A stretch of DNA of 64,000 nucleotides from an uncultured Clostridia bacterium (GTDB lineage Bacteria > Bacillota > Clostridia > Oscillospirales > Ruminococcaceae). Position numbers and translations under genes: made by a program. Under the pieces are notes generated by a model. It saw only the letters and a list, made by a program, of their open reading frames with translations. It made no database searches and had not been told where the DNA came from. Location of the stretch: assembly GCA_946567425.1 (NCBI GenBank), contig CAMNXF010000005.1, forward strand, positions 1 to 64,000, written 5' to 3'. Shown piece by piece: positions 5,504 through 21,547 of the stretch (its first letter is position 1; each line of letters opens with the position of its first letter).

Positions 5504-5526
5504 TGTATATCCTCCTTATTGTAAAT

Positions 5527-5601
5527 GCAAAAGCTCGCACCGGTCGGCTTTCGCCGACCTAGCCGAGCAACATTGCTTTGCTTGCTGCTCTCGATTTGCG
5601 G
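5527..5601 (-). repeat. Structured leader element, copy 1 (compact form)
   Basis: Lies in the 5' leader of the alpha-xylosidase gene, on the gene's strand. Read 5'-3' on minus: GCAAATCG, long stem P3 (8 bp, 5583-5590 with 5565-5572), GGCTAG (5564-5559), hairpin P4 (GTCGGC-gaaa-GCCGAC, 5558-5543), CGGTGCGAGCTTTTGC (5542-5527). The first and last blocks can pair. This is the shortest of five copies; the upstream side arm seen in copies 3 and 4 is absent. Elements of this form also lie at 9611, 16267, 17503 and 21405. Confidence 0.8.
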
Positions 5602-5629
5602 TTTATCCCGTGTGATCGTTGTTAATGAT

Positions 5630-5658
5630 ATAATACTACAATATATTCTCCACGTCAA
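5630..5658 (-). promoter_or_regulatory. Promoter of the alpha-xylosidase operon
   Basis: Minus strand TTGACG (5658-5653), 17-bp spacer, TATTAT (5635-5630). It is ~130 bases before the start codon, leaving room for the structured leader element. Confidence 0.7.
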
Positions 5659-5700
5659 ATATAAAAATATGCAATACAGATACTATTCTACTTTTTGCCG

Positions 5701-6576
5701 TTAATAATCGTGCCGTTCGCCGATTCTGCGGTACTCGTTGGGAGTGCAGCCCATAAGCCGCCGAAACTGCCTGTTGAAATTTGACAGATTGCGGAAACCG
5801 CACTCAAAGCTGATCTCCGAAACGGTCTTTGAGCACTCGAGCAGAGCGGAGCATGCGGCGCGTATTCTGTACTGCGTGATGTACTCGACGGCGGTCACGC
5901 CGGACGTTTCGCGAAATCGGTTCATAAAATAGCTCTTGCTGAGGTGAACGGTCGCGGCTAGTTGTTCAATGGTAATGTTTTCACTGAAATTATCGGCAAT
6001 ATACTCCAGCGCCGGACGCATCATTTCGCTTTTACCCATTTCCACAGGGGAATGCGCGCTGATATCCCCGTTGTCCTCAAGCAGCCAGAATAGCCGCAGC
6101 AACTCGCTTTTCATAAGCATATCAAGCCTCGGAGTGTTGCCGAGCGCACAGGAGACTATGTTTTCGGCGGTTATCCGCAGCTCATTATAGTAGCTATGCG
6201 CGTCAGTGATACGCAGCGCGGTAAATCCGCCGTTCGCGAGGGGACGGATACACTCGGCGGCAGAGCGGTCATTGTCGGACAGACCGAGCATTTCCGCGCT
6301 GAACACCACAGTATCGTAACGCTGAACTCCACCGCCGTGCGGATACATAGCGTGCAGAATATTTGGCGCGATCACTATAATATCGCCCTCTGCGGCGATA
6401 AACCTGTCGTCACCGCAAATATATTCCATTAGTCCTTCGTGCATAATGCTCAGCTCAAACTCGCCGTGCCAGTGCAGCGGCACATTCGAGAAATAGTCGG
6501 GTATTTTGCAGCAGTAGCAGCTGAACGGAACCAGCCGCGAGCTATGCCGTTTCTTTTCTTCGGTATCGTTGTTCAT
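5701..6576 (-). CDS. AraC-family transcriptional regulator with cupin sensor domain
   Basis: 291 residues. The N-terminal half (~1-150) looks like the cupin-type ligand-binding domain of sugar-responsive AraC proteins (HWHGEFELSI, then a GDIIVIAPNILHAM stretch with metal/sugar-pocket type His residues). The C-terminal ~100 residues hold two helix-turn-helix units: IEQLAATVHLSKSYFMNRF, and VSEISFECGFRNLSNFNRQF ending in the family signature GCTPNEYRR. ATG follows AAGGAGG. It precedes the alpha-xylosidase gene on the same strand and is the likely activator of that locus. The inducer is inferred to be a xylose-containing sugar. Confidence 0.9.
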   Translation of the reverse strand: MNNDTEEKKRHSSRLVPFSCYCCKIPDYFSNVPLHWHGEFELSIMHEGLMEYICGDDRFIAAEGDIIVIAPNILHAMYPHGGGVQRYDTVVFSAEMLGLSDNDRSAAECIRPLANGGFTALRITDAHSYYNELRITAENIVSCALGNTPRLDMLMKSELLRLFWLLEDNGDISAHSPVEMGKSEMMRPALEYIADNFSENITIEQLAATVHLSKSYFMNRFRETSGVTAVEYITQYRIRAACSALLECSKTVSEISFECGFRNLSNFNRQFRRLMGCTPNEYRRIGERHDY

Positions 6577-6590
6577 CGGTTCACCTCCTT

Positions 6591-6665
6591 AGAGCCTGTT
6601 TAGTATCCCTCAACACGCCGCCTGCACTCGCGTTTTGGCGCATTTCCAGATACTGAACAGGCTCT
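6591..6665. mobile_element. MITE-like 75-bp element with 16-bp terminal inverted repeats
   Basis: Begins AGAGCCTGTTTAGTAT (6591-6606) and ends with its inverted complement ATACTGAACAGGCTCT (6650-6665), 15 of 16 matching. The ~43-bp interior has no ORF. GAGCCTGTT-type ends are common for insertion sequences, so this may be a non-autonomous remnant; it could also simply be a long hairpin just ahead of the AraC gene. It separates the AraC ribosome binding site from everything upstream. No target-site duplication is obvious. Confidence 0.5.
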
Positions 6666-6671
6666 TAAATC

Positions 6672-6701
6672 AAAAAAGGCGAAACCGAAAGTTCCGCCTT
6701 T
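6672..6701 (-). terminator. Terminator of the YjfB-like gene
   Basis: On the minus strand AAGGCGGAAC (6700-6691), a 4-nt loop and GTTTCGCCTT (6686-6677) form a stem with one G-U pair, followed by TTTTTG. Confidence 0.75.
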
Positions 6702-6785
6702 ACGCGAGTTTCGCCCATTTAAGCAAGCTCCACTCATTTCCGACCCTTTACACAAACAACCCATTTTGCAAGCTGTGAGTGAAAA

Positions 6786-6971
6786 TTACGCGCGAACATC
6801 GAGCAACAGCCCTCTGCCGTCGGGCGAGGGCATATCGCCGAGCATATCGGTGATGATGTCCATAGCCGCCTCGGAAGACTCCATGCTCTTCTTGAGCATG
6901 CCGATAGACAGCGCGTCCTGCGTATTCGCCATAGCCATATCCATTGACAACGACGCGATAGACATTTCCAT
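6786..6971 (-). CDS. YjfB-like putative motility protein
   Basis: 61 residues. The N-terminus MEMSIASLSMDMAMANTQ and the following SIGMLKKSMESSEAA match the layout of the YjfB family (Pfam YjfB_motility), small proteins found in motile Firmicutes. I chose the ATG at 6971 rather than the in-frame ATG at 7004 because GGGAAGGGGG lies a proper distance before it and known members begin at this point. A consensus promoter (7031-7059) and a terminator (6672-6701) frame it as a single-gene unit, divergent from cheV. The molecular function of the family is unknown. Confidence 0.8.
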   Translation of the reverse strand: MEMSIASLSMDMAMANTQDALSIGMLKKSMESSEAAMDIITDMLGDMPSPDGRGLLLDVRA

Positions 6972-7030
6972 AACGTCAGCCCCCTTCCCGGTGTCGGGAT
7001 ACAAGTACCCCTTAATTATTCGTTACTGTT

Positions 7031-7059
7031 ATTCTACCATATATTGTGCCTTTTGTCAA
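7031..7059 (-). promoter_or_regulatory. Promoter of the YjfB-like gene
   Basis: Minus strand TTGACA (7059-7054), 17-bp spacer, TAGAAT (7036-7031), about 60 bases before the ATG. Confidence 0.75.
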
Positions 7060-7110
7060 GGGTTTTTGAAGATTTTCTAAAAAAAATGTACATTTTATAG
7101 ATAAAATCTC

Positions 7111-7139
7111 TTGATTTTTTGGAAATAATGTTGTATAAT
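7111..7139 (+). promoter_or_regulatory. Promoter of cheV
   Basis: TTGATT (7111-7116), 17-bp spacer, TATAAT (7134-7139), about 75 bases before the ATG. It is sigma-A type, not the TAAA-N15-GCCGATAA flagellar sigma-28 type. Confidence 0.75.
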
Positions 7140-7214
7140 ATAAATATTGATATAGTGGCTTAAGCGGAAAAGCGGTCATTATGCGTAAATAAATAAGTAA
7201 GGGGCTTTTTGAAT

Positions 7215-8108
7215 ATGGAAAACAATATTCTCCTTGAAAGCGGCACTAACGAGCTGGAAGTGTTGGAATTTATGGTGGGTAAGCAGAGTTTTGGCATAAA
7301 TATCGCCAAGGTCAGCGAGATCATGAACTATCAGCCTATGATCCCCGTACCCGATTCTCCTCCCGAGTTCGAGGGCGTGTTCACGCCGCGTGATAAGGTT
7401 ATCTCTGTTATTGACTTACATAAGGTGTTGAATAAAGAAAGTGACGATTCCGCGCGCGATCTGCTGATTATCTGCAATTTCAACCAGATGGACGTGGGTT
7501 TCCATGTTTCGTCTGTTAAGGGTATTCAGCGCATTTCTTGGGAGGATATTGAGAAACCTCCGCGTATTTCGGGCGACGGTACAAACAATATCGCGACAGG
7601 TATCGCAAAGCTCTCCGACAGAATTATCCTTATTCTCGACTTCGAGAAAATAGTTTCGGATATCAACCGTTCGGCTGTTATCGACGTTTCGGGCGCAACA
7701 ATGGCAGACGTTTCCAAGGCTAACAAGCATATCGTTATCGCCGAGGACTCACCGTTCCTCAACACGCTTATACAGAGCACTCTCGCGGAGGCGGGCTATA
7801 ATAATATAGTATCGTTCGACAACGGCAAGGACGCATGGGATTACATAAGCGGTCACAAAAATCTGACGGGAGATATCCTCGATCAGATATCCTGCGTTAT
7901 CAGCGATATCGAAATGCCGCAGATGGACGGTCATCATCTCACCAAGCTTATAAAGGACGACGAGGTTTTGCACCGTATTCCTGTTTACTTGTTCTCCTCG
8001 CTTATCAATGAGCAGATGAAGGTCAAGGGCGAAAGCGTCGGCGCGGATGCGCAGTTCTCCAAGCCGCAGATAGGTCAGCTTATCAATTATATTAACGAGC
8101 ATATCTGA
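7215..8108 (+). CDS. cheV: Chemotaxis coupling protein CheV (CheW domain fused to receiver domain)
   Basis: 297 residues. Residues ~10-150 form a CheW domain, which links chemoreceptors to the kinase CheA. Residues ~168-297 form a response-regulator receiver domain: acidic pair in IVIAEDSPFLN, phosphorylation site D231 in ISDIEMPQMDG, and conserved Ser/Thr and Lys positions in YLFSS and FSKPQ. I prefer ATG at 7215 over TTG at 7209 because AAGGGG is then 10 bases away. It is flanked by its own promoter and terminator. With the YjfB-like gene it implies a motile organism, although no other flagellar gene is in the window. Confidence 0.92.
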   Translation: MENNILLESGTNELEVLEFMVGKQSFGINIAKVSEIMNYQPMIPVPDSPPEFEGVFTPRDKVISVIDLHKVLNKESDDSARDLLIICNFNQMDVGFHVSSVKGIQRISWEDIEKPPRISGDGTNNIATGIAKLSDRIILILDFEKIVSDINRSAVIDVSGATMADVSKANKHIVIAEDSPFLNTLIQSTLAEAGYNNIVSFDNGKDAWDYISGHKNLTGDILDQISCVISDIEMPQMDGHHLTKLIKDDEVLHRIPVYLFSSLINEQMKVKGESVGADAQFSKPQIGQLINYINEHI

Positions 8109-8109
8109 T

Positions 8110-8292
8110 TTATAGAAATGCCCCCGAATTATTGGGGGCATTTTTATGTGTCTTGACCTTTGTTATTGTAAATGTATCAAGCAGTACCACTATCTCTTCG
8201 GTGGTGTAATTTTTCTTTTCGCCGTTTGAGAAAATAAGTCGGATTTCGTACAACGTTGCTATTTTTGCGTCTTGCCTTTCTTTTTCCGTCAT
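8110..8292 (-). CDS. Small protein of unknown function
   Basis: 60 residues beginning MTEKERQDAKIATLYEIRL and rich in charged residues, with a beta-alpha pattern (YEIRLIFSNGEKK, then TTEEIVVLLDT). I do not recognise a named family. It is likely real because ATG at 8292 is preceded by AGGCGG and by a full-consensus promoter on the same strand (8326-8354). I chose this ATG over an in-frame GTG nine bases upstream, which would fall inside the ribosome binding site. The last ~10 codons overlap the cheV terminator, so the C-terminus may be poorly constrained. Confidence 0.6.
   Translation of the reverse strand: MTEKERQDAKIATLYEIRLIFSNGEKKNYTTEEIVVLLDTFTITKVKTHKNAPNNSGAFL
8116..8146 (+). terminator. 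Terminator of cheV
   Basis: Perfect 10-bp stem AAATGCCCCC (8116-8125) with 8134-8143, followed by T's. It lies inside the 3' coding end of the convergent small gene. Confidence 0.9.
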
Positions 8293-8325
8293 AACGTTCA
8301 CCGCCTTTCGGTAGTTTTACTCAAT

Positions 8326-8354
8326 ATTATACATTATCGGTTTTTGTTTGTCAA
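8326..8354 (-). promoter_or_regulatory. Promoter of the small gene ending at 8110
   Basis: Minus strand TTGACA (8354-8349), exactly 17-bp spacer, TATAAT (8331-8326): a full match to the sigma-A consensus, about 35 bases before the ATG. Confidence 0.8.
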
Positions 8355-8402
8355 GCGATATTTCATAGCCGCATTTTTGATATGATTTTTTGCCACTACA
8401 TC

Positions 8403-8431
8403 TTGACTATTTTCAAAAAGTGTGGTACAAT
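8403..8431 (+). promoter_or_regulatory. Promoter of the first G3E GTPase gene
   Basis: TTGACT (8403-8408), 17-bp spacer, TACAAT (8426-8431), about 45 bases before the ATG. Confidence 0.7.
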
Positions 8432-8475
8432 ATAAGTTGCGGCAATAGAACATTATTTAGAAAGGATCGGTAAAA

Positions 8476-9564
8476 ATGACTAAAATAGATGTTTTTTCGG
8501 GATTTCTGGGAGCGGGCAAGACTACGCTCATCAAGAAACTGCTCAAAGAGGGCTATAACGGCGAAAAGCTTGTGCTTATCGAGAACGAATTCGGCGAGAT
8601 CGGTATCGACGGCGGATTTATGAAGGACGCGGGTATCGAGGTCACCGAGATGAACCAAGGGTGCATCTGCTGTTCACTGGTCGGCGACTTCGGCGAGGCG
8701 CTGAAAAAGGTGCTCGACGAGTTCGCGCCTGACAGAATACTCATTGAGCCGTCGGGCGTCGGAAAGCTCTCTGACGTTATCAAGGCGGTAACGGGCATAG
8801 GCAGCGATAAAATAACGCTGAACAGCTACACCACCGTTGCCGACGCGACCAAAATCAAGATGTATATGAAGAATTTCGGCGAGTTCTACAAGAACCAAGT
8901 GGAAACGGCGAAAACTATCGTGCTCTCGCGCACGCAGAAGCTCTCCGAGGAGAAGCTCGCCGAGGCGGTCGCGATGATACGCGAGCTGAACGAGCACGCG
9001 ACTATCGTCACCACCAACTGGGACGAGATCAGCGGCAATCAGATACTGGCGGCAATGGAGACGGAGAATAAGTTCGCCGAGGAGCTGCTCAAGGACGAGG
9101 ATATATGTCCCGTGTGCGGTCATTCGCAACACGGTCATGACGAGCACGAGCATCATCACGACGATGATGAGCATGAACATCATCACCACGATCATGATGA
9201 CGAGGAGTGCTGCCACGGTCATCACCACCACGACCATGTTGACGGGGAGTGCTGTCACGATCACGAGCACGGACATCACCACCACCATGCGGACGAGGTT
9301 TTCACGTCAATGGGCATTGAGAGCGCGAGGAAGTTCACGAAAGAGGAGCTTGAAAACGCGCTGTCAAAACTGTCGGGCGAGGAGTTCGGCGTTGTGCTGA
9401 GGGCTAAGGGTATCGTTCCCGGAACGGACGGCAGCTGGTACCACTTTGATTTCGTTCCCGAGGAATACGAGGTGCGCACGGGCGCTGCGGACGTTACGGG
9501 CAGAATGTGCGTTATCGGCTCAAAGCTCGTCGAGGATAAGATAAAAAATCTGTTTAACGTGTAA
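8476..9564 (+). CDS. G3E-family (CobW/COG0523) GTPase, probable zinc metallochaperone
   Basis: 362 residues. The N-terminus has the P-loop GFLGAGKTT (~residues 9-17), a Mg-binding ENEFGE strand, and the CxCC metal motif CICC at C63-C66 typical of COG0523 zinc chaperones. Residues ~207-275 are an extreme His/Asp/Glu-rich linker with more than 30 histidines and a CPVCG pair, able to bind or store Zn(II) or Ni(II). A CobW C-terminal domain (~275-362) follows. The family inserts metals into client enzymes using GTP. Which metal is handled here is inferred from the His and Cys clusters. It is followed by a structured repeat and a second G3E protein. Confidence 0.9.
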   Translation: MTKIDVFSGFLGAGKTTLIKKLLKEGYNGEKLVLIENEFGEIGIDGGFMKDAGIEVTEMNQGCICCSLVGDFGEALKKVLDEFAPDRILIEPSGVGKLSDVIKAVTGIGSDKITLNSYTTVADATKIKMYMKNFGEFYKNQVETAKTIVLSRTQKLSEEKLAEAVAMIRELNEHATIVTTNWDEISGNQILAAMETENKFAEELLKDEDICPVCGHSQHGHDEHEHHHDDDEHEHHHHDHDDEECCHGHHHHDHVDGECCHDHEHGHHHHHADEVFTSMGIESARKFTKEELENALSKLSGEEFGVVLRAKGIVPGTDGSWYHFDFVPEEYEVRTGAADVTGRMCVIGSKLVEDKIKNLFNV

Positions 9565-9610
9565 AAGCGGCGGCAAAGCAACGTGAGCCGAAAGGCAACG
9601 CGATAATGTC

Positions 9611-9761
9611 GCAGCGGCAAAAGTCGCAAGTGAGCTGTGTTGCCGTAACGAAACGAGCGCAGCGAGCGGAGTGGAGGCAATGCAGCTCGGCTAGGCGAAC
9701 GAAGTGAGCCGGTGCGAGCTTTTGCCTTTAAATCCCGAGCTTTTGCCTTTTAAATAAGGAG
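9611..9761 (+). repeat. Structured leader element, copy 2, with duplicated tail
   Basis: Lies between two G3E GTPase genes. GGCAAAAG (9616-9623) is fully complementary to CTTTTGCC (9719-9726). Between them are stem P3 (9632-9644 with 9676-9688, 13 bp including G-U pairs), GGCTAG (9689-9694), hairpin P4 (9695-9709) and CGGTGCGAGC. The tail CGAGCTTTTGCC is repeated (around 9736-9748) before TTTTAAATAAGGAG, which supplies the ribosome binding site of the gene at 9767. Sequence at 9565-9610 may be a degraded extension. Confidence 0.8.
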
Positions 9762-9766
9762 AAAAG

Positions 9767-10717
9767 ATGAACGAGATACCCGTTTATTTGATGACAGGCT
9801 TTCTGGAGAGCGGAAAGACTTCATTTATATTGGAAACGCTGAACGATAAGCAGTTCAGCCGCGGCGAGAAAACGCTGGTGATCGCGTGCGAACAGGGCGA
9901 GGTCGAGTTCGACGAGAGGATAATCAAGGCGTCGAAATCGGTGGTGGAGCTTATCGAGGATGAGGACGATTTCAACCCCGAGAACCTTACCGCGCTCGTC
10001 GAGAAGCACAAGCCGACGCGCATTATGCTCGAGTACAACGGAATGTGGAGCTTGCGCGATATGGCGGTCAAAGCTCCCAAGAACTGGATATTCTACCAGA
10101 TATTTATGTTCGTGAACCATGTCACATTTGATATGTATATGAACAATATGCGGCAGCTCATCTCGGACGATATTTCGGTGTCTGATATCGTGATATTCAA
10201 TCGGTGCGAGCCGGGCAAGGTCGACAAGAAACGGCTTCGCAGAGCGATAAAGGCGCTCAATCCGCGCATAGATATGATGTTCGAGTACGTCGACGGAACG
10301 GTAGAGCAGGGTTTTCAGGGCGACGACGAAATGCCGTTTGACGTGAACGCAGACCCTATCGAGATAGTTCACGACGACTTCGGGCTGTGGTATATCGACA
10401 TTATGAGCAACGCGCCGCGTTACAAGGGCAAAAACGTCCGTGTGCGCGGAATGGTGTTCAGGGCGAGCAATATCCCTAAAGGGTATTTCGTTATCTCGCG
10501 CCGCGCCATGACGTGCTGCGCCGACGATATTCAGGTGGTCGGCATTCTCGTAAAATCTCCCGATGAAGCCAAGTGGAAGGACGGCGACTGGGTAGAGGTC
10601 ACGGGGAACGTCACCGCCGAGAAACAGCAGTGCTACAAGGGCACGGGTCCCGTTATCCTCGCGGACAGTATTCTCGGAACGGAAAAGGCGGAGAGCGAGC
10701 TTGTTTACTTCAACTGA
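9767..10717 (+). CDS. G3E-type GTPase fused to a YcgQ/TIGR03943-type C-terminal domain
   Basis: 316 residues. Residues ~1-190 resemble a CobW-type GTPase: P-loop [21 protein letters not shown] in the switch region, and IFNRCE where NKxD-type guanine recognition would be. The CxCC motif of the upstream paralogue is missing. Residues ~205-316 resemble the C-terminal domain of YcgQ/DUF1980 (TIGR03943) membrane proteins, including the [11 protein letters not shown] motif and an OB-like VEVTGNV strand. In Firmicutes the YcgQ/YcgR proteins are linked to metal uptake, so a metal-delivery role is inferred. The ribosome binding site comes from the structured repeat. Confidence 0.75.
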
Positions 10718-11750
10718 AATATTTACGGTGCGGCTCTCCAAGGACGGACAAGCCGTCGAGATAATAGATCAGACGCTGCTCCCGAACAAGGTGAAGTTTC
10801 TACGGCTCGAGACCGCCGAGACCCTTTACGAGGCGATTTTCGAGCTGAGAGTGCGCGGCGCTCCGGCTATCGGCATTGCGGCGGCGTTCGGAATGTACGT
10901 TCTCGCGCAACAAATTCCCGATAATGGGGGCTTTTACGCGGAGCTTTTGCGGCTCGGCGATTATCTGATTTCATCACGGCCTACGGCGGTGAACCTTAGC
11001 CACGCGGTAAAGCGTATGCTTTCGGCGGCTGCGGAGTGCGGTAAAGAAGCCGCGCTTCCTCGGCTTTATGAGGAGTGTAACGCGATTTACAACGAGGACA
11101 GGGCAATTTGCCGCGCGATAGCCGAAAACGGCTTGACGCTTGTCAAGGACGGCGACGGTATACTCACGCACTGCAACGCGGGCGCGCTCGCCGCCTCGGA
11201 GTACGGCACGGGGCTGGGTTCGCTTTTGCTCGGTAAAGAGCAGGGGTATGATTTTCACGTTTACACCGACGAAACGCGTCCCTTATTACAGGGCGCACGG
11301 CTTACGGCGTTCGAGCTGTTCCGTGCGGGGATAGATGTTACTTTGATATGCGACAGCGCGGCTTCAATGCTGATGAGGGCGGGCAGGATAAACGCGTGCT
11401 TTGTCGGCTGCGACAGGGTAGCCGCAAACGGCGACGTCGCCAACAAGATAGGAACGCGCTCGGTCGCCGTGAACGCGAAATATCACGGCGTGCCGTTCTA
11501 CGTGTTCTGTCCGAGCTCGACTATTGATTTTGACTGCGGGAGCGGCGCGGATATCGTCATTGAGGAGCGCGCTCCTGAGGAAATAACGGAGAAGTTTTTC
11601 GCGAAGCGCATTGCTCCCGAAGGCGTGAAGTGCTTTAATCCCGCGTTCGACGTTACCGACGCGGAGTTAATTACGGCGATAGTCACGGAGCGCGGTATCT
11701 GCCGCTATCCGTACACAAAGTCGCTTGCGGAGATGTTCGGGAGGAACTGA
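10701..11750 (+). CDS. mtnA: S-methyl-5-thioribose-1-phosphate isomerase
   Basis: 349 residues, the family length. It converts methylthioribose-1-phosphate to methylthioribulose-1-phosphate in salvage of 5'-methylthioadenosine (MTA). Visible motifs: [15 protein letters not shown] near the N-terminus, catalytic C158 in [10 protein letters not shown], and the Asp D238 in [19 protein letters not shown]. The start is TTG at 10701, overlapping the previous gene by 17 bases, with GGAGAG six bases before it; no usable ATG exists near the expected N-terminus. It leads a tight run ending in an MTA/SAH deaminase. eIF2B-like regulatory subunits share the fold, but the active-site Cys/Asp pair supports the enzyme. 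Confidence 0.9.
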
Positions 11751-11751
11751 A

Positions 11752-12414
11752 ATGACTATACGAAACGAGCGCCCTGAGGATTACAGAGCTGTCGAGGAGC
11801 TTATCAAGCGCGCGTTCTGGAACGTGAACTTTCCGGGGTGTGACGAGCATTATCTTGCGCACACAATGCGCTCACACAAGGATTTTGTTCCCGAGCTTGA
11901 CCTTATTCTCGAGCTTGACGGGAAAATCGCCGCAAGCGTGATGTATACAAGGTCGGTGCTTGTCGACGAAAAAGGCGGTGTAAAGACGTCGCTGACGTTT
12001 GGACCGTTTGCCGTGCTGCCAGAATATCAGCGGCATGGTTATGGAAAACAGCTGTTGGAGCGTTCCTTTGAGACCGCGCTCGGTCTGGGGTATGAGGCTG
12101 TCGTTATCTTCGGCAATCCTGAGAATTACGTTGCACGGGGCTTCAGAAGCTGCAAACGGTACGGCGTTTCTCTCAAAAACGGGGAATATCCCGTGGCGCT
12201 GCTTGTAAAGGAGCTTAAAAAGGGCGCTTTGTCCGGTCACAAGTGGACGTTCGAAGAAAGCGGCGCTTACAATGTTGACCCGTATGGCGCGGAGAAATTC
12301 GACGCGGATTTTCCGCAGTTTGAAAAGGGGTATAAACCGTCGCAGGAACTTTTTTACATTTACAGTAATTCCCGATTGAACGTGGAGAGTCAAGCAAATG
12401 AAGATAACCGTTGA
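11752..12414 (+). CDS. GNAT-family N-acetyltransferase (YhbS-like)
   Basis: 220 residues. The acetyl-CoA-binding core is FGPFAVLPEYQRHGYGKQLL (residues ~84-103), the classic Q/RxxGxG/A pyrophosphate loop, followed by GYEAVVIFGNPENYVARGF, typical of the YhbS subgroup. The C-terminal ~60 residues are an extension of unknown role. ATG at 11752 overlaps nothing essential and is preceded by GGGAGG, so I reject the longer frame from 11725. Being inside the MTA salvage run suggests co-expression, but the substrate cannot be predicted. Confidence 0.85.
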   Translation: MTIRNERPEDYRAVEELIKRAFWNVNFPGCDEHYLAHTMRSHKDFVPELDLILELDGKIAASVMYTRSVLVDEKGGVKTSLTFGPFAVLPEYQRHGYGKQLLERSFETALGLGYEAVVIFGNPENYVARGFRSCKRYGVSLKNGEYPVALLVKELKKGALSGHKWTFEESGAYNVDPYGAEKFDADFPQFEKGYKPSQELFYIYSNSRLNVESQANEDNR

Positions 12415-12796
12415 CAGGGCAAGCGTCTGCATGGGCGACGACATGTTCTCCCACGAGAGAACCTATGAGCTCCCCGGTAACGCCGACTGCCAAGACTTGC
12501 TGAAAACGCTCAGAGCGGACAGCTTTTTCGCGTCGGTTTCGGGGAACAACGTCGTGTGGGTGCTGACGGCGGGCGACAGCTATGTGTTCGCCTATTACAC
12601 GAAAACTGAGCGCTATGTGCAATATCTTCCCGAGAAAAGCCTTGCGGAGATTTGCGCAATGGGAAAACCGAAATTCAGCTATTACACGTCGCCGTCCGCT
12701 TGGAAACGCGCCATGGAACGGCTTTTCGGGGGCGGCGGGCATTGGCGTGAGGAGATCAAATACTGCGAGAGCTTGGAGGACAACCATGAAACTTAG
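12398..12796 (+). CDS. Hypothetical protein in the MTA salvage operon
   Basis: 132 residues starting MKITVDRASVCMGDDM. No family recognised. It is predicted soluble, alpha/beta, with several Tyr/Trp residues and a conserved-looking segment AMGKPKFSYYTSPSAWKRA. It overlaps the acetyltransferase gene by 17 bases (GGAGAG before its ATG) and the deaminase gene by 11 bases, so it is translationally coupled in a four-gene unit. The overlaps and the clean coding pattern support a real gene. Confidence 0.7.
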   Translation: MKITVDRASVCMGDDMFSHERTYELPGNADCQDLLKTLRADSFFASVSGNNVVWVLTAGDSYVFAYYTKTERYVQYLPEKSLAEICAMGKPKFSYYTSPSAWKRAMERLFGGGGHWREEIKYCESLEDNHET

Positions 12797-14410: not shown

Positions 14411-16252
14411 ATGCCGTTTTTACCGATAAGCCGTGAGGATATGCGCAAACGGGGAATTGAACAGCTCGATTTTATTTGCGTGACGGGCGACGCTTACATC
14501 GACCACCCGACGTTCGGGATAGCCATTATTTCGCGAATGATAGAAGCGGCGGGGTTCTCGGTCGGCATTATCGCGCAGCCCGTGAGCGACGCGGATTTCA
14601 CCGGGCTCGGCAAACCCAAGCACTGCTTTATGGTGACGGGCGGCAACATCGACAGCATGGTGTCTAATTACACTGTCGCGTTAAAGAAACGCAACGACGA
14701 CGCTTATTCCGCGGGAGGACGCGGCGGCAGACGACCCGACAGGGCAGTCACGGTCTACTGCCGTGCGCTGAAACGGCTGTTTCCCGACGTTGAGATCGAG
14801 ATAGGCGGTCTGGAGGCGAGCTTGCGGCGGTTCGCGCACTACGACTACTGGAGCGACAGCGTAATGCCGTCCGTTCTCGTCGACAGCGGCGCGGACTTTC
14901 TGATGTACGGCATGGGCGAGGTCACGCTATCGGAAATGCTGAACAGGTTCAAGCAAGGGCAGAAGCTCGCCGATATGCACGACCTGCGCGGTATCTGCTA
15001 CCTCACCAAGCCCGAAAACACGCCGCTCGGCGCGGTGCAGTGCGACAGCTTTGAGATAGTCCGCGAAAACAAGAAAGCCTACGCAAAGGCTTGCCGCAAG
15101 CAGTACGACGAGCAGGACGAGTTCTACGGGCGCACGATAGTTCAGCGGCACGGCAATATGATGCTTGTCCAGAATCCGCCGCAGCGCTCGGTCACGCAAG
15201 CGGAGTTCGACTACGCTTATGAGCTGCCGTACATGAGGGCGTACCACCCCGTCTACGAAAAGAACGGCGGTGTTCCCGCAATACAGGAAGTCGAGTTCTC
15301 GATAACGCACAACAGGGGCTGTTTCGGGTTCTGTAACTTTTGCTCGATAGCGCTCCATCAGGGGCGTAAGGTCGTGACGAGGAGCGGGGATTCCGTCTAC
15401 AACGAGGCGGTCACGCTCTCCGAGAAGCCGAGTTTCAAGGGCTACATTCACGACGTGGGCGGTCCGACCGCGAATTTCCGTCACCCGTCCTGCGACAAAC
15501 AGGAGGAGCACGGGCTCTGCAAGGGCAGAAAGTGTCTTGCGCCCGAGCCGTGCAAAAACGTTAATGCCGACCATTCCGATTATATTCATCTGTTAAGGCG
15601 GCTGAGGGCGATAAAGGGCGTGAAAAAGGTGTTTATCCGCTCGGGGATTCGGTTCGACTATATGCTGTTGGAGAAGAACGGCGCGTTCCTCGATGAGCTG
15701 GTAGCGAATCACGTCAGCGGACAGCTTAAGGTCGCTCCCGAGCACGCGAGCAACAAGGTTCTTGACAAAATGGGAAAGCCGCATATCGAGGTGTACGAGG
15801 AGTTCGAGCGGCGGTTCTACGCGTCGACGAAAAAGTGCGGCAAGGAGCAGTATCTTGTGCCGTATCTGATGAGCTCTCACCCGGGCTGCACGCTCGCCGA
15901 GGCGATAGAGCTCGCGGTATTCGAGAAGCGGCACGGCATACGACCCGAACAGGTGCAGGACTTCTACCCGACACCCGGAACTATTTCCACGGCAATGTTC
16001 CACACGGGGCTCGACCCGTATACAATGGAGCCCGTTTTCGTGCCGAAAACGTCCGAGGAAAAGGCTATGCAGAGGGCGCTGCTGCAATACTTCAAGCCAC
16101 AGAACCGCAGCTTGGTGGAAAAGGCGCTCCGCATAGCCAAGCGCACCGACCTGATAGGTCACGGCAAGGACTGTCTGATACCGCCGTCAACCAAGCCGCA
16201 GAACGCAAAAGCGCCCCGCGGCAAGCAGAGCAGCAAGCCGCGAAAAAAATAA
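14411..16252 (+). CDS. YgiQ-family radical SAM protein
   Basis: 613 residues, normal for the YgiQ (UPF0313) family. An N-terminal domain with a cobalamin-binding-like fold (GDAYIDHPTFG motif) precedes the radical SAM core, whose [4Fe-4S] cysteines are C304, C308 and C311 in RGCFGFCNFCS. A Cys cluster ~365-385 (SCDKQEEHGLCKGRKC) is characteristic of the family, and the basic C-terminal tail (PRGKQSSKPRKK) suggests nucleic-acid contact. The biochemical role of YgiQ is unsettled. ATG follows a strong purine-rich ribosome binding site. A structured repeat element starts 15 bases after the stop codon. Confidence 0.9.
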   Translation: MPFLPISREDMRKRGIEQLDFICVTGDAYIDHPTFGIAIISRMIEAAGFSVGIIAQPVSDADFTGLGKPKHCFMVTGGNIDSMVSNYTVALKKRNDDAYSAGGRGGRRPDRAVTVYCRALKRLFPDVEIEIGGLEASLRRFAHYDYWSDSVMPSVLVDSGADFLMYGMGEVTLSEMLNRFKQGQKLADMHDLRGICYLTKPENTPLGAVQCDSFEIVRENKKAYAKACRKQYDEQDEFYGRTIVQRHGNMMLVQNPPQRSVTQAEFDYAYELPYMRAYHPVYEKNGGVPAIQEVEFSITHNRGCFGFCNFCSIALHQGRKVVTRSGDSVYNEAVTLSEKPSFKGYIHDVGGPTANFRHPSCDKQEEHGLCKGRKCLAPEPCKNVNADHSDYIHLLRRLRAIKGVKKVFIRSGIRFDYMLLEKNGAFLDELVANHVSGQLKVAPEHASNKVLDKMGKPHIEVYEEFERRFYASTKKCGKEQYLVPYLMSSHPGCTLAEAIELAVFEKRHGIRPEQVQDFYPTPGTISTAMFHTGLDPYTMEPVFVPKTSEEKAMQRALLQYFKPQNRSLVEKALRIAKRTDLIGHGKDCLIPPSTKPQNAKAPRGKQSSKPRKK

Positions 16253-16266
16253 AGCGGCATATTAAA

Positions 16267-16409
16267 GCTGCAGCGGCAAAAGGCGCCGAAGCGATAAATC
16301 GCACCTGCGAGCAGTATTGCCGCAGAGTAGCGAGCGGAGCGGAGGCAATACTGCTCGACTAGGTCGCGCGAAGCGTGACCGGTGCGAGCTTTTGCTTTTA
16401 AATAAATCC
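16267..16409 (+). repeat. Structured leader element, copy 3 (full form)
   Basis: GCAAAAG (16276-16282) pairs with CTTTTGC (16389-16395). Inside are a small GCGAT-AA-ATCGC hairpin (16291-16302), a perfect 13-bp stem P3 (16309-16321 with 16344-16356), GACTAG (16357-16362), hairpin P4 (16363-16379) and CGGTGCGAGC. A TTTTAAATAAAT tail and a GTCGACA...AGGGAAGAA block lead into the epimerase gene at 16441. This copy is nearly identical to copy 4 in its first 45 bases but has quite different P3 and P4 sequences that remain self-complementary. Confidence 0.85.
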
Positions 16410-16440
16410 GCTATCGTCGACATACAGGGAAGAACAGAAC

Positions 16441-17355
16441 ATGAAAATTTTAGTTACAGGCGGCACGGTGTTCGCGAGCCGCTTTACCGCCAAATATTTT
16501 GCGCAGCGCGGTCACGAGGTGTACGCGCTCAACCGCGGCAGCCGTGCGCAGTCCGAGGGCGTAACGCTCGTCAAGGCGGACAGGCATGCGCTCAGCGGCG
16601 TTCTGAAAGGGCGTTTCGACGCGGTTATCGACGTTTGCGCGTATAATGCTGTTGATATTGATGACCTGTTAGACGGTTTGGGAGAATTTGGCAGTTACAT
16701 AATGGTGAGCTCCTCGGCGGTGTACCCCGAGGCATTGCCGCAGCCGTTCCGCGAGAACCAACAGGTCGGCGCGAACGCGGTATGGGGCAAGTACGGCACG
16801 GACAAGACAGCCGCCGAGAGGGTGCTTTCGGAACGCGTTCCCAAGGCATACATACTCCGACCGCCGTATCTGTACGGGCGAATGAACAATTTGTACCGTG
16901 AAGCGTTCGTGTTTGAGTGCGCCGAGCGCGGTCTCCCGTTCTGCTTGCCGCCGAACGGAAAGCTGCAATTTTTTGACATTGAGGACTTGTGCCGTTTCAT
17001 GGAGATACTGCTTGAAAAGCGCCCCGAACGGCGCGTTTTTAACGTCGGCAATCCCGAGAGTGTCACGGTCACGGACTGGGTACGGCTTTGTTACGGCGTT
17101 CTCGGGAAAGTGCCCGAGCTTGTTCAGGTCGGCGGGGACGTTCCTCGGCGCAGTTACTTCCCGTTCTACGACTACGATTACAGGCTCGACGTGACGGAGA
17201 TGTTGCGGCTTATGCCCGAGGTGAAGCCCTTGGAGCTCGGTTTGCGGCAGTCGTATGAGTGGTTCGCCGCGAACAAGGAACAGGTCGCGCGCAAGCCGCT
17301 GTTGGAGTTCATCGAAGAAAACGGGTTGTACAAAATAGACAAAATTCAACAGTGA
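16441..17355 (+). CDS. NAD(P)-dependent epimerase/dehydratase (extended SDR)
   Basis: 304 residues. N-terminal Rossmann motif LVTGGTVFASRFTA resembles TGGxxFxG of atypical extended SDRs, followed by an Arg in LNRGSRA that favours NADP or NAD ribose binding. SSSAVYPE carries the catalytic Ser, and the YxxxK pair is at YGTDK. C-terminal half is a substrate domain with an LRPPYLYG segment. The family includes nucleotide-sugar epimerases and plastid mRNA-binding CSP41-like proteins; the substrate cannot be told. AGGGAAG before the ATG is part of the repeat-associated block. No partner genes of a sugar pathway adjoin it. Confidence 0.85.
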   Translation: MKILVTGGTVFASRFTAKYFAQRGHEVYALNRGSRAQSEGVTLVKADRHALSGVLKGRFDAVIDVCAYNAVDIDDLLDGLGEFGSYIMVSSSAVYPEALPQPFRENQQVGANAVWGKYGTDKTAAERVLSERVPKAYILRPPYLYGRMNNLYREAFVFECAERGLPFCLPPNGKLQFFDIEDLCRFMEILLEKRPERRVFNVGNPESVTVTDWVRLCYGVLGKVPELVQVGGDVPRRSYFPFYDYDYRLDVTEMLRLMPEVKPLELGLRQSYEWFAANKEQVARKPLLEFIEENGLYKIDKIQQ

Positions 17356-17401
17356 TTTTCTACTTCGAGCAATTAAAAACACGTTTTTTCACAATATGTA
17401 T

Positions 17402-17430
17402 TGTAGTTGAGCGGAAAAAGGTGTATAATT
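17402..17430 (+). promoter_or_regulatory. Promoter of typA
   Basis: TTGTAG (17402-17407), 17-bp spacer, TATAAT (17425-17430). The start codon is ~200 bases downstream, with structured element copy 4 in between. Confidence 0.65.
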
Positions 17431-17502
17431 GTGGTTGGCAAAAAATGTGTAGAAAAAGCTGCATATAAAAGACACAGCGCAAGCGGCGAAGCACGGTTGC
17501 GT

Positions 17503-17627
17503 GGGTGCAGCGGCAAAAGTCGCCGAAGCGATAAATCGCACCTGCGACGGTGACGACGAAGCGGAGGAGTTGCCGTCGGCTAGCGCGGCAAAGCCGCGCG
17601 GTGCGAGCTTTTGCTATTCAAATAAGG
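17503..17627 (+). repeat. Structured leader element, copy 4 (full form, in typA 5' leader)
   Basis: GCAAAAG (17513-17519) pairs with CTTTTGC (17608-17614). Inside: GCGAT-AA-ATCGC hairpin, stem P3 (GACGG 17546-17550 with CCGTC 17573-17577), GGCTAG (17578-17583), hairpin P4 (CGCGGC-aaa-GCCGCG, 17584-17598), CGGTGCGAGC. It ends in CAAATAAGGAG, the typA ribosome binding site, eight bases before the ATG. A promoter at 17402-17430 should place the whole element on the typA transcript. Confidence 0.85.
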
Positions 17628-17634
17628 AGATAAA

Positions 17635-19461
17635 ATGAAGAGAGAAGATTTAAGGAACATTGCGATAATAGCACACGTCGACCACGGCAAGACAACGCTG
17701 GTCGACGAAATGCTCAAACAGGGCGGAGCATTCCGCGAGAACCAAGCGGTCGCCGACCGCGTTATGGACAACAACGACCTCGAGCGGGAGCGCGGCATTA
17801 CGATACTCGCGAAGAACACTTCATGTATGTACAACGGCGTGAAAATAAATATCGTCGACACGCCCGGTCACGCGGATTTCTCGGGTGAGGTGGAGCGTAT
17901 ACTGAAAATGGTGAACGGCGTTCTGCTGCTGGTCGACAGCTTTGAAGGTACTATGCCGCAGACGCGCTTCGTACTGCAAAAGGCTCTGGAGCTCGGTCAC
18001 AAGATAATTGTCGTCGTGAACAAGACCGACCGCCCCGACGCACGCAATCACGAGGTGGTTGACGAGGTCCTGGAGCTGCTGCTCGACCTCGACGCGACCG
18101 AGGAACAGCTCGACAGCCCCGTTGTGTTCTGCTCGGGAAGGCTCGGCTGCTCGTCCTACGACCCCGACAATATGGGCACGGACTTTAAGCCGCTGTTCGA
18201 CAAGATACTGGAGCATATCGACCCGCCCGATGGCGACGGTGAGGGAGATTTGCAGCTGTTGGTTTCGTCTATTGACTACAATGACTACGTCGGCAGAATT
18301 GCCGTAGGACGTATCGAGCGCGGTTCGATAAAGCAGAACCAAGAGGTCATGGTGTGCGATTATCATGAACGCACCGCGCCGTTCAAGGCAAAGGTGGTGT
18401 CGCTGTATCAGTTCGAGGGCTTAAACAAGACCCCGTGCGAGACCGCAAGCGTGGGCGATATCGTGTGCATTTCGGGTATCGAGGGCATTACTATCGGGCA
18501 GACGATAACCGCTGTTTCCAATCCGGAGCCGCTGCCGTTCGTTAAGATCTCCGAGCCGACTGTCGAGATGACATTCTCCGTCAATTCCTCGCCGTTCGCG
18601 GGTCGCGAGGGCAAGTTTGTGACTTCGCGGCAGATACGCGAGCGCCTTATCAAGGAAACGCTGAAAGACGTTTCGCTCCGCGTTTCAGACAGCGAGACGA
18701 CCGACGCAATGAATGTAGCGGGGCGCGGCGAAATGCACCTGTCGATACTTATCGAGACCATGCGCCGCGAGGGATACGAGCTGTCGGTTTCAACGCCGAG
18801 AGTATTGTACAAGGAGATTGACGGGCAGAAGTGCGAACCCGTGGAGCGCCTTGTTATCGACGTTCCCGAGACGGCGGTCGGCTCGGTCATGGAGAAAATG
18901 GGGCAGCGCAAGGGCGAGATGATAGGAATGCACCCCGTCGGCTCGCGCACGCGGCTGGAGTACCTCATTCCGTCGCGCGGACTGTTCGGTTACAGGAGCG
19001 AGTTCATGACCGACACAAAAGGCGAGGGCGTGATGAACGCGGTGTTCGAGGGCTACAAGCCGTACTACGGCGATATTCCGCGCAGAACGGTCGGTTCGCT
19101 TGTCGCTTGGGAAACGGGCACGGCGGTCACCTACGGGCTGTTCAACGCGCAGGAGCGCGGCACGCTGTTTATCGACGCGGGCGTTCCCGTGTACGAGGGA
19201 ATGATCGTCGGCGTTTCGCCGAAGGCGGGCGATATCGTGGTCAACGTCTGCAAGAAAAAGCACCTCACGAACACGCGCGCAAGCGGCTCGGACGATGCAC
19301 TGAAGCTTATTCCCTATAAGCAGATGAGCCTTGAGGAGAGCTTGGAGTTTATTCAGGACGATGAGCTTGTCGAGGTCACGCCGAAGAATATCCGTATCAG
19401 AAAAACAATTCTTGAGCGTGATCTCAGACTTAAAGCCGAGGCTAAACAGAAAAAGATTTGA
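17635..19461 (+). CDS. typA: Ribosome-associated GTPase TypA/BipA
   Basis: 608 residues, normal TypA length. Translation-factor GTPase with G1 [10 protein letters not shown]2/G3 region [11 protein letters not shown] and DTPGHADF, and G4 NKTDR, followed by the EF-Tu-like domain II, EF-G-like domains III and V ([13 protein letters not shown]) and the TypA-specific C-terminal domain. TypA binds the 70S ribosome and aids 50S assembly and growth under stress such as cold. The start at 17635 follows AAGGAG. The 5' leader contains a structured repeat element, which may influence its expression. Confidence 0.96.
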
Positions 19462-19472
19462 CGGAGAAAGTT

Positions 19473-19979
19473 ATGATAACTCTGCACGTTCCGGAATACA
19501 ACGAGCTTCGGTATCGTCAAAGGCTGCTCGCCGACCCCGATACCATGAGCTATAACAAGGGGTACGGCAGTGAAAACGGTTGTATCGATTTTCCCGAGGA
19601 GAAGTGGCAGTCGTGGTACAGTTTATGGACGGCGGAAACGTCTGAAAGATTTTACGCGTATATCGTACTCGACGGTGAGTTTATCGGCGAGGTAAATCTT
19701 TATAAAAACCGCGATAAAAATTTGTATGGCTGCTGTTATGAAATGGGTATCGTTATCGAGAACCGTTACCGCGGAAAAGGTTACGCGACGAAAGCGCTTG
19801 ATCTGTTGCTCGAAACTGCATTTGAAGAGCTTGGCGCGGCGCGAGTTCACAATGAGTTTGAGAGCTTTCGCACCGCTGCCCTCCGTTTGCACTTAAACGC
19901 CGGCTTTTCGGTCGACGCAGAGGAAGGGGGTATCGTTCGGCTTTCACTTACGGCGGCGCGATACCGTCAAAAACAATAG
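19473..19979 (+). CDS. GNAT-family acetyltransferase (RimJ/RimL-like)
   Basis: 168 residues. Acetyl-CoA loop NRYRGKGYATKALDLLL (~residues 90-106) and a C-terminal RLHLNAGF segment place it with RimJ/RimL-type N-acetyltransferases. I chose ATG at 19473, six bases after GGAG; an in-frame TTG at 19458 overlaps the typA stop. It is probably co-transcribed with typA and ends before a hairpin terminator. Substrate unknown. Confidence 0.85.
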   Translation: MITLHVPEYNELRYRQRLLADPDTMSYNKGYGSENGCIDFPEEKWQSWYSLWTAETSERFYAYIVLDGEFIGEVNLYKNRDKNLYGCCYEMGIVIENRYRGKGYATKALDLLLETAFEELGAARVHNEFESFRTAALRLHLNAGFSVDAEEGGIVRLSLTAARYRQKQ

Positions 19980-19983
19980 TATG

Positions 19984-20010
19984 AACGCACACGGCTGTTC
20001 GTGTGCGTTT
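19984..20010 (+). terminator. Hairpin terminator after the acetyltransferase
   Basis: Perfect 10-bp stem (19984-19993 with 20000-20009), 6-nt loop, short TTTT run. The T-tract is short and the next gene follows within 20 bases, so read-through is likely. Confidence 0.65.
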
Positions 20011-20030
20011 TAAACAGGGAGATGATTAGT

Positions 20031-21404
20031 TTGGCTAAGGATATGACAAAGGACATGACCAAGGGCGCGGTCGCGCCTATATTGCTGAAATTCTCACTTC
20101 CTCTGCTGGTGAGCGTTATCTTCCAGCAGATGTACAACATCGCCGACAGCATGATAGCAGGGCGGCTCATCAACAACGACGCGCTCTCGGCTATCGGCGC
20201 GTCCTACCCGATAACGATGATTTTTCTCGCGATAGGCACGGGCATGAACATCGGTTGTTCGGTCATGATATCGACATTTTTCGGCGCAAAGGACTTAAAA
20301 CAGATGAAAACCGCCGTCTACACCTCGCTCATCTCAACGGGCGTGCTGGCGGTGGTGCTGACGGCCGTCGGATATTTCACAAGCGGATTGTTTCTGAAAA
20401 TTCTCGGCACGGACGACAGCATTTTCGCCGACTCGCAGACCTACCTCAACATCTATGTTTTCGGGCTGCTGTTCCTGTTCATCTACAACATCTGCACGGG
20501 GATATTCACTGCGCTCGGCGACAGCAAAACGCCGCTCTACTTCCTGATAGGCTCGTCAATCGGCAACATCGGAATGGATCTGTTGTTCGTGGCGGTGTTC
20601 AAAATGGGCGTTGCGGGCACGGCTTGGGCAACGTTCATCTGTCAGGGCGTTTGCTCGGTGCTTGCGTTTATCGTGCTGATACGCCGCATTTCGCGTATTC
20701 AAAGCGAAAAATTCCGTCTGTTCGAGTGGAGAATGCTCGGCAAGATAGCAACGCTGTCCGTTCCCAGCATTTTACAGCAGAGCTTTGTTTCGGTCGGACA
20801 GTTATTCATACAAAGTCTCGTCAACGACTGCGGCACAGATGTTGTGGCTGGCTACGCGTCGGCGATAAAGCTGAACACGTTCGCGATAACCTGTTTCTCG
20901 ACGGTTGGCACCTCGGTATCCAACTTCACTGCCCAGAACATTGGCGGCAAGGAGTTCGGCAGAGTGCGCAAAGGCTTTCGTGTGGGTGCGGCGGCAGCGG
21001 TCGTAATCGCTGCGGCGTTCGCGGTATGCTATGTGGTGTTCTCGAAGAACCTTATCTACCTGTTCATGGACAGCACAAACGCCGATACTTCGTCGGCTGC
21101 GGCGGCGGGACAGGAGTTCCTGATGACCGTCGCGCCGTTCTACCTTGCGGTCACAGTCAAGCTTGTCGCGGACGGCGTACTGCGCGGCGGCAGACGAATG
21201 GCGGCGTTTATGGTGACGACGTTCAGCGACCTGATACTCCGCGTGGCGTTTGCGTTTATCTTGAAGCCGACGTTCGGCGCAAAGGGGATATGGCTGTCGT
21301 GGCCTGTCGGGTGGACGACAGCGGCGGTCATCTCGCTTGCGATGTATCTTGTCTACATACGGAAGCTGTGCCCGATCACATACAAAAAGAGCAACCAACA
21401 GTAG
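20031..21404 (+). CDS. MATE-family multidrug/Na+ efflux transporter
   Basis: 457 residues with about 12 hydrophobic segments arranged as two six-helix halves, the MATE layout. The N-terminus FSLPLLVSVIFQQMYNIADSMIAGR and ISTLFGA-like FFGAKD loop are typical of the NorM/DinF superfamily. It would export cationic compounds with Na+ or H+. TTG at 20031 is chosen as start because AGGGAG lies nine bases before it; ATG at 20022 has no spacing, and a GTG at 20001 is inside the terminator hairpin. Its stop codon abuts structured element copy 5. Confidence 0.9.
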   Translation: MAKDMTKDMTKGAVAPILLKFSLPLLVSVIFQQMYNIADSMIAGRLINNDALSAIGASYPITMIFLAIGTGMNIGCSVMISTFFGAKDLKQMKTAVYTSLISTGVLAVVLTAVGYFTSGLFLKILGTDDSIFADSQTYLNIYVFGLLFLFIYNICTGIFTALGDSKTPLYFLIGSSIGNIGMDLLFVAVFKMGVAGTAWATFICQGVCSVLAFIVLIRRISRIQSEKFRLFEWRMLGKIATLSVPSILQQSFVSVGQLFIQSLVNDCGTDVVAGYASAIKLNTFAITCFSTVGTSVSNFTAQNIGGKEFGRVRKGFRVGAAAAVVIAAAFAVCYVVFSKNLIYLFMDSTNADTSSAAAAGQEFLMTVAPFYLAVTVKLVADGVLRGGRRMAAFMVTTFSDLILRVAFAFILKPTFGAKGIWLSWPVGWTTAAVISLAMYLVYIRKLCPITYKKSNQQ

Positions 21405-21540
21405 GTGCAGCCAAGCGGAGCGCAAGCGAGTGATATTGCAGACTTGGAGCGGAGGGAGCAAAGCGACCGAAGCGGAAAGTATGCGATATCACTCGGCTAG
21501 GGCGGCGAAAGCCGTCCGGTGCGCGGAGCGTTTTTAAATA
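21405..21540 (+). repeat. Structured leader element, copy 5 (divergent)
   Basis: Begins immediately after the MATE stop codon. Stem P3 is GAGTGATATTGC (21428-21439) with GCGATATCACTC (21483-21494), 12 bp with one G-U. Then GGCTAG (21495-21500), hairpin P4 (GGCGGC-gaaa-GCCGTC, 21501-21516) and CGGTGCG (21517-21523). The 3' tail is altered (CGGAGCGTTTTTAAATAAA), and the GCAAAAG closing strand is missing. Tandem GTCGACA/AGGGAAGAA units follow, leading to the RluA-type gene. Confidence 0.8.
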
Positions 21541-21547
21541 AACAGCC

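Follow-up and report, generated by a model that had tools for sequence, protein, structure and literature searches.

A folded and probably mobile intergenic element with a ribosome-binding site at or near its tail, dispersed within one clostridial genus

The first 64,000 nucleotides of contig CAMNXF010000005.1 (assembly GCA_946567425.1, forward strand), from an uncultured Clostridia bacterium of the Ruminococcaceae, hold five copies of an element whose strand folds into a three-way junction ahead of genes; this whole 64-kb stretch is called the window below. We find the element in one genus and in related phage contigs, as a multi-copy, strand-folding and intergenic unit. With a probability of roughly 0.6, its copies represent a non-autonomous, dispersed mobile element of this genus, with a ribosome-binding site (RBS) at or near the tail. 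A preliminary description of the window had proposed a folded leader RNA or a transposable hairpin akin to the repetitive extragenic palindromes (REPs). The REP-like mobile half of this proposal is strengthened by empty orthologous sites, uneven copy number, copies in phages and compensatory changes in the stems. The leader half stands as far as position is concerned, the copies being co-directional with their genes, located between cistrons or in a 5' untranslated region (UTR), and followed by a Shine-Dalgarno (SD) sequence. A regulatory leader of the riboswitch type is not supported, because the genes served are unrelated to each other and conservation is lacking at most of the sites checked.

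How far does the family extend? A covariance model built from 81 matches from relatives (R2) recovers each of the five copies, at 5522-5605 on the minus strand and at 9617-9731, 16291-16401, 17513-17620 and 21413-21537 on the plus strand (copies 1 to 5 below), with no further match in the window at E up to 1. The family had been described as consisting of these five; the window's own genome (G000; genomes carry G numbers and loci L numbers) holds 52. A model built from an alignment of 13 own-genome copies (R1) returned 52 matches at E <= 0.1 in its 2.9 Mb, and local re-scoring with R1 gave 54 matches, two of them duplicates, which leaves 52 distinct copies. BLAST of copy 2 against the same genome yields 38 matches, itself counted. 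The pattern CTAG-gap-CGGTGCG occurs six times in the window against 0.78 expected, a count reached in none of 100 shuffles; at its sixth match, at 14227, the rest of the element is missing as judged by eye. Genome-wide the pattern gives 37 matches, and 17 when read backwards; on its own it is only moderately specific over the genome. The copies analysed from relatives are those that were fetched, mostly the better-scoring ones: the 81 matches minus the truncated L153 and the partial L079 make 79, of which the 77 without N were used for folding. Tandem arrays comprise four copies at L115, three at L179 and two each at L098, L116, L149 and L150.

The unit is mostly about 100-120 nt long and comprises a closing stem P1, a long arm P3, a hairpin P4 and an A/T-rich tail (TTTTAAATAA). 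The three helices meet in the junction, and the folding strand is the coding strand. By eye, P3 has a 3-bp foot (AGC/GCT, ATC/GAT or TGC/GCA) set off by a bulged purine, and beyond this foot come P3, an A, P4, CGG, the P1 3' strand and the TTTTAAATAA tail. Two motifs of the preliminary description dissolve in this anatomy: GRCTAG, taken for a fixed contact, contains the GCT that pairs with AGC of the P3 foot and varies with the foot (by eye), and CGGTGCG, described in the same terms, is CGG joined to the start of the P1 3' strand. P1 differs by lineage, with 3' strands that match: the window's genome has GCAAAAGTCGCA and AAGCG types, G032 has GAAATTTCAAAA and GCAATTTGCGAA, G027 has TCGCGAAAAA and TAAAATTTGCGAA, and G018 has GCAAATT.. 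and GCAATTC.. among others. Terminal inverted repeats, a mark of miniature inverted-repeat transposable elements (MITEs), are thus present in the form of P1, whose 12 modelled pairs join inverted sequences at either end of the unit. Within G000, G018 and G032, P1 varies less than P3. In G000, by a crude parse that left 9 of the 52 copies unparsed, one P1 occurs with many P3/P4 combinations (24 P3 classes), and an identical 12-nt P1 start is found in 20 copies.

The covariation of P3 and P4, which the preliminary description had read from the five copies, is real; in relatives it reaches P1 too, and for the whole junction it is overwhelming, as the 81 matches from relatives show. In alignment A3, 89.9% of cells are paired, with 37 double-change cells against 12.3 after shuffling. 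A4 (the 81 relatives' matches, 29 pairs) has 95.6% paired cells and 815 double changes against 262, spread over 29 of 29 pairs, and A5 (54 own rows, 52 distinct) has 87.8% and 231 against 78, figures to be read with the fact that both were aligned to the model itself, which favours its pairing. The pairing left in the A5 control is 67.5%, set against 87.8%; in slid controls of A3, A4 and A5, paired cells never exceed 46.4%. Minimum-energy folds of single sequences recover on average 91/94/71% of P1/P3/P4 pairs in A4 and 65/67/59% in A5, and 58/81 (A4) and 24/54 (A5) rows retain at least half of every helix. The sense strand is predicted to fold more stably than its complement in 52/52 own and 74/77 relatives' copies. 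Counted on A4 and A5 as made, as are the pairing and loop figures, G.T cells exceed A.C cells in P3 by 80:10 and 54:12. In P4, cells other than standard or A-C ones are almost always G-A (49/51 and 44/46), and they make up tandem GA pairs such as those of C-GA-AC-GAA-GT-GA-G.

The family is confined and unevenly distributed. With R1, 12 of 61 genomes matched, the window's among them and every one from the same genus; the 24 genomes from other families of the order gave no match. R2 gave matches in 15 of the 43 genus genomes, numbering 92, 88 (G018), 85 (G062), 78, 61, 52, 47, 30, 27, 17, 12, 8, 2, 1 and 1, and 28 had no match; one of the single matches, in G026, is marginal (E 8.7e-4), and G015 has one weak partial R1 match without an R2 match. 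Over 394 genomes of the order, R2 matched the window's own only, 10 candidates per genome being scored, so that weak copies outside the genus could escape. The relatives, found by a protein scan, are metagenome-assembled genomes of unclassified Oscillospiraceae, Ruminococcaceae and Clostridia.

The region of the window copies is syntenic in G014, G020, G029, G018 and G062, and R2 finds no match in the syntenic stretches fetched from these five genomes. All five sites are comparable in G020 and G029 and are element-free in both; fewer are comparable in the other relatives. Two cobW-type genes that flank copy 2 are separated by 0-12 nt in five relatives as against 202 nt here, and upstream of typA the relatives share a promoter-like sequence and not the element. 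A comparison at pheS (start located in 21 of 30 loci; R2 search of 29 of the 30, L182 being the one left out) points the same way: in G000 a linker and the element lie between the T-box terminator and the start, the nearest relatives G014 and G020 have no copy, G032 has a copy with another P1, G063 has three in tandem, and G025 has a version that appears degenerate by eye. Some of the corresponding sites are occupied by other sequences. At the orthologues of 5503-5701 and 17355-17635, G029 (L232, without a family match) carries a different, similar-looking hairpin-rich insert (GGGATTCCCAAGGG... / GTGAGGCAGAGCCTCAC), and unrelated dispersed elements may thus use the same sites. A gene that looks leucine-rich-repeat-like by eye fills the element gap at the orthologue of 16252-16441 in G020 (L229) and at that of 21404-21626 in G029 (L232).

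The element also occurs in phage contigs. Of four P1-specific patterns searched against viral contigs, one hit one contig (L254), in which a copy lies directly upstream of a major head protein gene (PHROG 422) neighboured by terminase, portal and scaffold genes. Related head genes are preceded by copies L043 and L048 of G000 and by two tandem copies in G018 (L150), where the head gene is 45% identical. R2 matches are present at three of seven head-gene loci: before the head gene in L255 (the L254 contig) and L257, and elsewhere in L256. L256 lacks the head-gene copy and has one between two genes further on, and L255 shows the reverse. At this second site L255 reads stop-C-ATG, with an SD-like stretch inside the end of the upstream gene; in L256 that stretch is gone and the element brings its own (both by eye). 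A search of public phage records and plasmids with copy 2 came back empty.

As had been described for the five, copies are mostly oriented with the gene that follows. By strand calls from codon log-odds trained on 24 reading frames of the window, and applied to relatives as well, the downstream gene lies on the same strand in 48 of 52 own copies and on the opposite strand in none (4 uncalled), and the upstream gene in 36 and none (16 uncalled). Among the 79 relatives' copies, the downstream gene is on the same strand in 51, on the opposite one in 8 and uncalled or too short in 20; for the upstream gene the numbers are 38, 3 and 38. A start codon with an SD follows the element at 8-24 nt in 34/52 own and 39/79 other copies. 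The element brings, or sits on, a translation start region. The claim that several copies donate the RBS of the next gene agrees with copies 1, 2 and 4, with an SD at or after the tail; copies 3 and 5, in which a linker intervenes, do not directly provide it. The predicted probability of the SD being unpaired is 0.67 in 39 own and 0.52 in 44 relatives' copies, against 0.37 in 27 control genes of the window, computed over a slightly different stretch. The downstream genes scanned are indeed unrelated: they include GH31, TypA, PheS, DnaJ, RecO, topoisomerase, PlsX-type, arginyl-tRNA synthetase and phage head genes. At the sites checked we saw no conserved link to orthologous or related genes, the exceptions being five host genes and one phage head gene in two genomes.

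Copy 1 (R2 32.6 bits; none in G014, G020 and G029) has a shortened P1, and its sequence is followed on the minus strand by an SD (GGAGG, 5511-5515) and a GH31 glycosidase gene (Pfam GH31, 3170-5503). Copy 2 (R1 117.1 bits, R2 83.9 bits) has its 3' end duplicated at 9732-9761 (+; GAGCTTTTGCCTTTTAAATAAGGAG), and the duplicate holds the SD of the gene at 9767; such a second partial copy before the RBS, consisting only of the P1 3' strand and the tail, is also seen at L063, L097 and L102. In the neighbouring cobW-type genes at 8476-10717, a likely metal-homeostasis pair, a long part of the first is rich in histidine (by eye) and the second is fused to DUF1980_C (domain scan). Copy 3 (R2 56.1 bits over 16291-16401) has its P1 5' strand from 16276, which extends it to 16276-16401 (+), and a small extra hairpin; the sequence after it is a linker holding the RBS of the gene at 16441. 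Copy 4 (R2 45.0 bits; none in G014, G020 and G029) precedes typA/bipA at 17635, identified by BipA domains, and its tail is joined by an SD (AAGGAG, 17624-17629, +). It would lie in the 5' UTR of that gene, because a promoter-like TTGTAG / TATAAT, picked out by eye in the intergenic regions, lies upstream at 17401-17429 (+); the same sequence is present in the element-free G014 and G020 and partly changed in G029 (by eye). Copy 5 (R2 59.5 bits), with P1 of the AAGCG/CGCTT type, is flanked by genes for a MatE transporter and, further on, a pseudouridine synthase (Pfam), and a linker of degenerate repeats (GTCGACATTTAGGGAAGAAA units) occupies 21541-21625 (+) up to the latter. Similar units follow some other copies, in G032 as GTCAACATTTTAAAACCAGCCAAGATCAACA, and may form a separate dispersed family.

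Does the element belong to a known group? That no named family was recognized in the preliminary description agrees with Rfam, which gives no match over the whole window at the gathering threshold; in e-value scans of window positions 5000-22000 and of 17 loci, the matches over threshold are T-box and tRNA, none on the elements. Clostridiales-1 RNA (RF01699) resembles the element in its multi-arm junction and its occurrence in Clostridiales and the human gut, and in the G063 copies P3 and P4 can be aligned with the final two arms of that RNA. It differs in that its model has one arm more and in that matches stay below the gathering score of 48 throughout (26.8 bits in G063, 39.2 in G133). With seven candidates per genome scored, G063 alone of the 43 genus genomes reaches E 0.01. 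A table entry excerpted from PMC2864571 lists this RNA as probably an RNA and probably not cis-regulatory. The G133 match, at about 1500-1610 of L268 in another family of the order, is a three-arm junction of other sequence without an R2 match. A known RNA family as the identity of the element was rejected on the Rfam and Clostridiales-1 scans.

Among mobile repeats, the closest parallels are the REPs and their inverted doublets (REPINs), associated with REP-associated tyrosine transposases (RAYTs). As the consulted sections of PMC3116915 and PMC3733652 depict them, they are small, non-autonomous, extragenic and multi-copy, and fold as single strands with compensatory changes; our element is likewise extragenic and multi-copy, with a single-strand fold and compensatory changes. 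Membership in the classical GTAG/CGTC REP families is nevertheless not supported. The tag is absent, its position reading CTAG and varying with the P3 partner (GATAG, GCAAG; by eye), and the Y1 transposase is lacking from most copy-rich genomes, as detailed below. In addition, REPINs come as doublets in inverted orientation whereas the element is one three-way-junction unit, and the element is followed by an RBS whereas REPs lie mostly downstream of coding regions, according to the sections of PMC3733652 consulted. The bcr1-bcr18 repeats of the Bacillus cereus group are also dispersed intergenic repeats of one group, bcr1-3 being MITE-like and often placed in UTRs or between operon genes in the account excerpted from PMC3446304. 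The same excerpt mentions neither an RBS provided by bcr copies nor closing stems that differ by lineage. The host group is different, and the likeness is judged from published descriptions. Reportedly, bcr1 has been called group-specific with the characteristics of a mobile element. The element thus looks as though it works like a REPIN or a bcr-type repeat, yet it fails two REP tests, tag and transposase. Insulators of the RiboJ type are folded modules just upstream of an RBS; here, as far as we can judge, there is no recognizable ribozyme core, the element is natural, and an effect by opening the RBS is unsupported. A literature search returned no title or abstract describing this family, which may still be in print.

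The loops bear on whether the fold is selected as DNA or as RNA. GNA triloops close 122 of 264 element arm regions and GNRA loops 13 (regions too short or with N omitted), compared with 6 of 157 each in terminator-like hairpins of the same loci, counted by a simpler method. RNA, too, commonly contains GNRA loops and tandem GA pairs. The part of PMC4686876 consulted credits GNA and GNNA mini-hairpins with extraordinary stability as DNA, and that of PMC3116915 considers folded DNA as the form of REPINs. On the strength of the GNA loops, the selected form may likewise be folded single-stranded DNA, which is suggestive only, RNA being also possible. This argument rests on the loop counts and on PMC4686876, because DNA energies computed with ViennaRNA show no gain for a GNA loop.

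Several observations weigh against a mobile element. A search of the 43 genus genomes with Y1 and RVT_1 profiles revealed no mobilizing partner enzyme. The Y1 transposase (PF01797) occurs in 9 of them and is lacking in 10 of the 12 with at least 8 copies, among these the near-complete G018, G027, G062, G063 and G066; only G006 and G030, the latter with a short fragment, have it, and a Y1/RAYT transposase is rejected as partner on this ground. RVT_1 (PF00078) is present in 17 of 43, comprising 7 of the 12 copy-rich genomes and 10 of the 31 others. A reverse transcriptase is unsupported rather than excluded as partner, because the five copy-rich genomes in which RVT_1 was not found (G032, G030, G022, G006 and G023) come from assemblies that are 73-90% complete. 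By eye, neither the L256/L255 pair nor the window sites show a clear target-site duplication, the sequences being too diverged for exact ends. Five orthologous host genes have copies in two species, namely pheS, dnaJ, recO and spoVAE, as named by the family scan, and a fifth, without a family match, which we take to be SpoIIIAH-like; free insertion alone may not explain these, and the sharing may reflect inheritance, a common preference or re-insertion. Opposing genes are found in relatives (8 of 59 called downstream and 3 of 41 upstream), with a codon model trained on the window. P1 and P3 are about equally uniform in G025 and P1 is the less uniform in G027, and the excess of G.T over A.C is weaker in P1 (15:8, 23:11) and mixed in P4 (1:5, 13:4). 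Finally, with the element intact, deleted or shuffled in silico (n=34), SD accessibility is 0.67, 0.61 and 0.62 (p = 0.21 and 0.64). The surroundings including the tail, rather than the junction, therefore seem to account for it, and an insulator effect through RBS opening is not supported.

Could the fold instead be kept for the host, as a cis-acting RNA leader that stabilizes mRNA, insulates or boosts translation, is spread by recombination and is selected as RNA? We regard this as doubtful, though worth serious consideration. It would suit the co-directional intergenic position and RBS spacing, the promoter-like sequence upstream of copy 4 that G014 and G020 share, the tolerance of G.T wobbles in P3 on the sense strand, the copies before major head genes (L043, L254/L255, L257 and the G018 tandem) and the higher SD accessibility relative to controls. 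It fits poorly with the near-constant accessibility after deletion or shuffling, which the tail may explain, with closest relatives lacking the element at the same genes, with unrelated downstream genes and with loops of the DNA-stable GNA type. A leader that responds to one shared signal, be it a riboswitch, T-box-like or ribosomal-protein-like, is highly improbable: compensated stems around a conserved junction immediately before genes are what one would expect of it, but Rfam gives no match on the element at threshold, the targets range from GH31 to phage head genes, orthologous sites lack the element, and few unpaired bases are conserved by eye. A third alternative does without function altogether, in that template switching at quasi-palindromes would convert one arm to match the other. 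The several near-perfectly paired versions of P3 and P4 accompanying one P1 in a genome are consistent with this, but it is unlikely in view of the bulged purine and junction bases, which are conserved by eye, the P4 G-A cells, which arm correction would tend to remove, the GNA loop bias and the RBS spacing.

Under the mobile-element reading, we suggest that the differences between genomes are insertions, and that the fold is kept since copying or mobilization would need it, with folded single-stranded DNA a likelier form than RNA. A trans-acting enzyme matched to P1 would move the element. On arrival, its new SD would keep the next gene translated, and selection would retain mainly such insertions, which could produce the orientation bias. 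Taken further, the element might represent a new class, a mobile 'plug-in leader': a single strand with a three-way junction, which an enzyme other than Y1/RAYT would move in the form of folded DNA. Its P1, specific to the lineage, would be the recognition end and switch between species with full compensation, P3 and P4 would be free to vary and shuffle, and phages as well as insertions at start codons would spread it, since it comes with its own translation start region. We offer this more specific scheme tentatively, as possible rather than likely.

REPs, the best known dispersed structured repeats, keep mostly downstream of coding regions (PMC3733652, as excerpted), whereas this family stands, in this genome, mostly at start codons. 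The genes concerned include operon, housekeeping and phage head genes, and a complex fold is kept while almost every pair changes. With tens of insertions per genome and empty sites in sister species, the genus provides a natural series for measuring the costs of a mobile RBS against its benefits, and the family is a clean target for finding a mobilizing enzyme.

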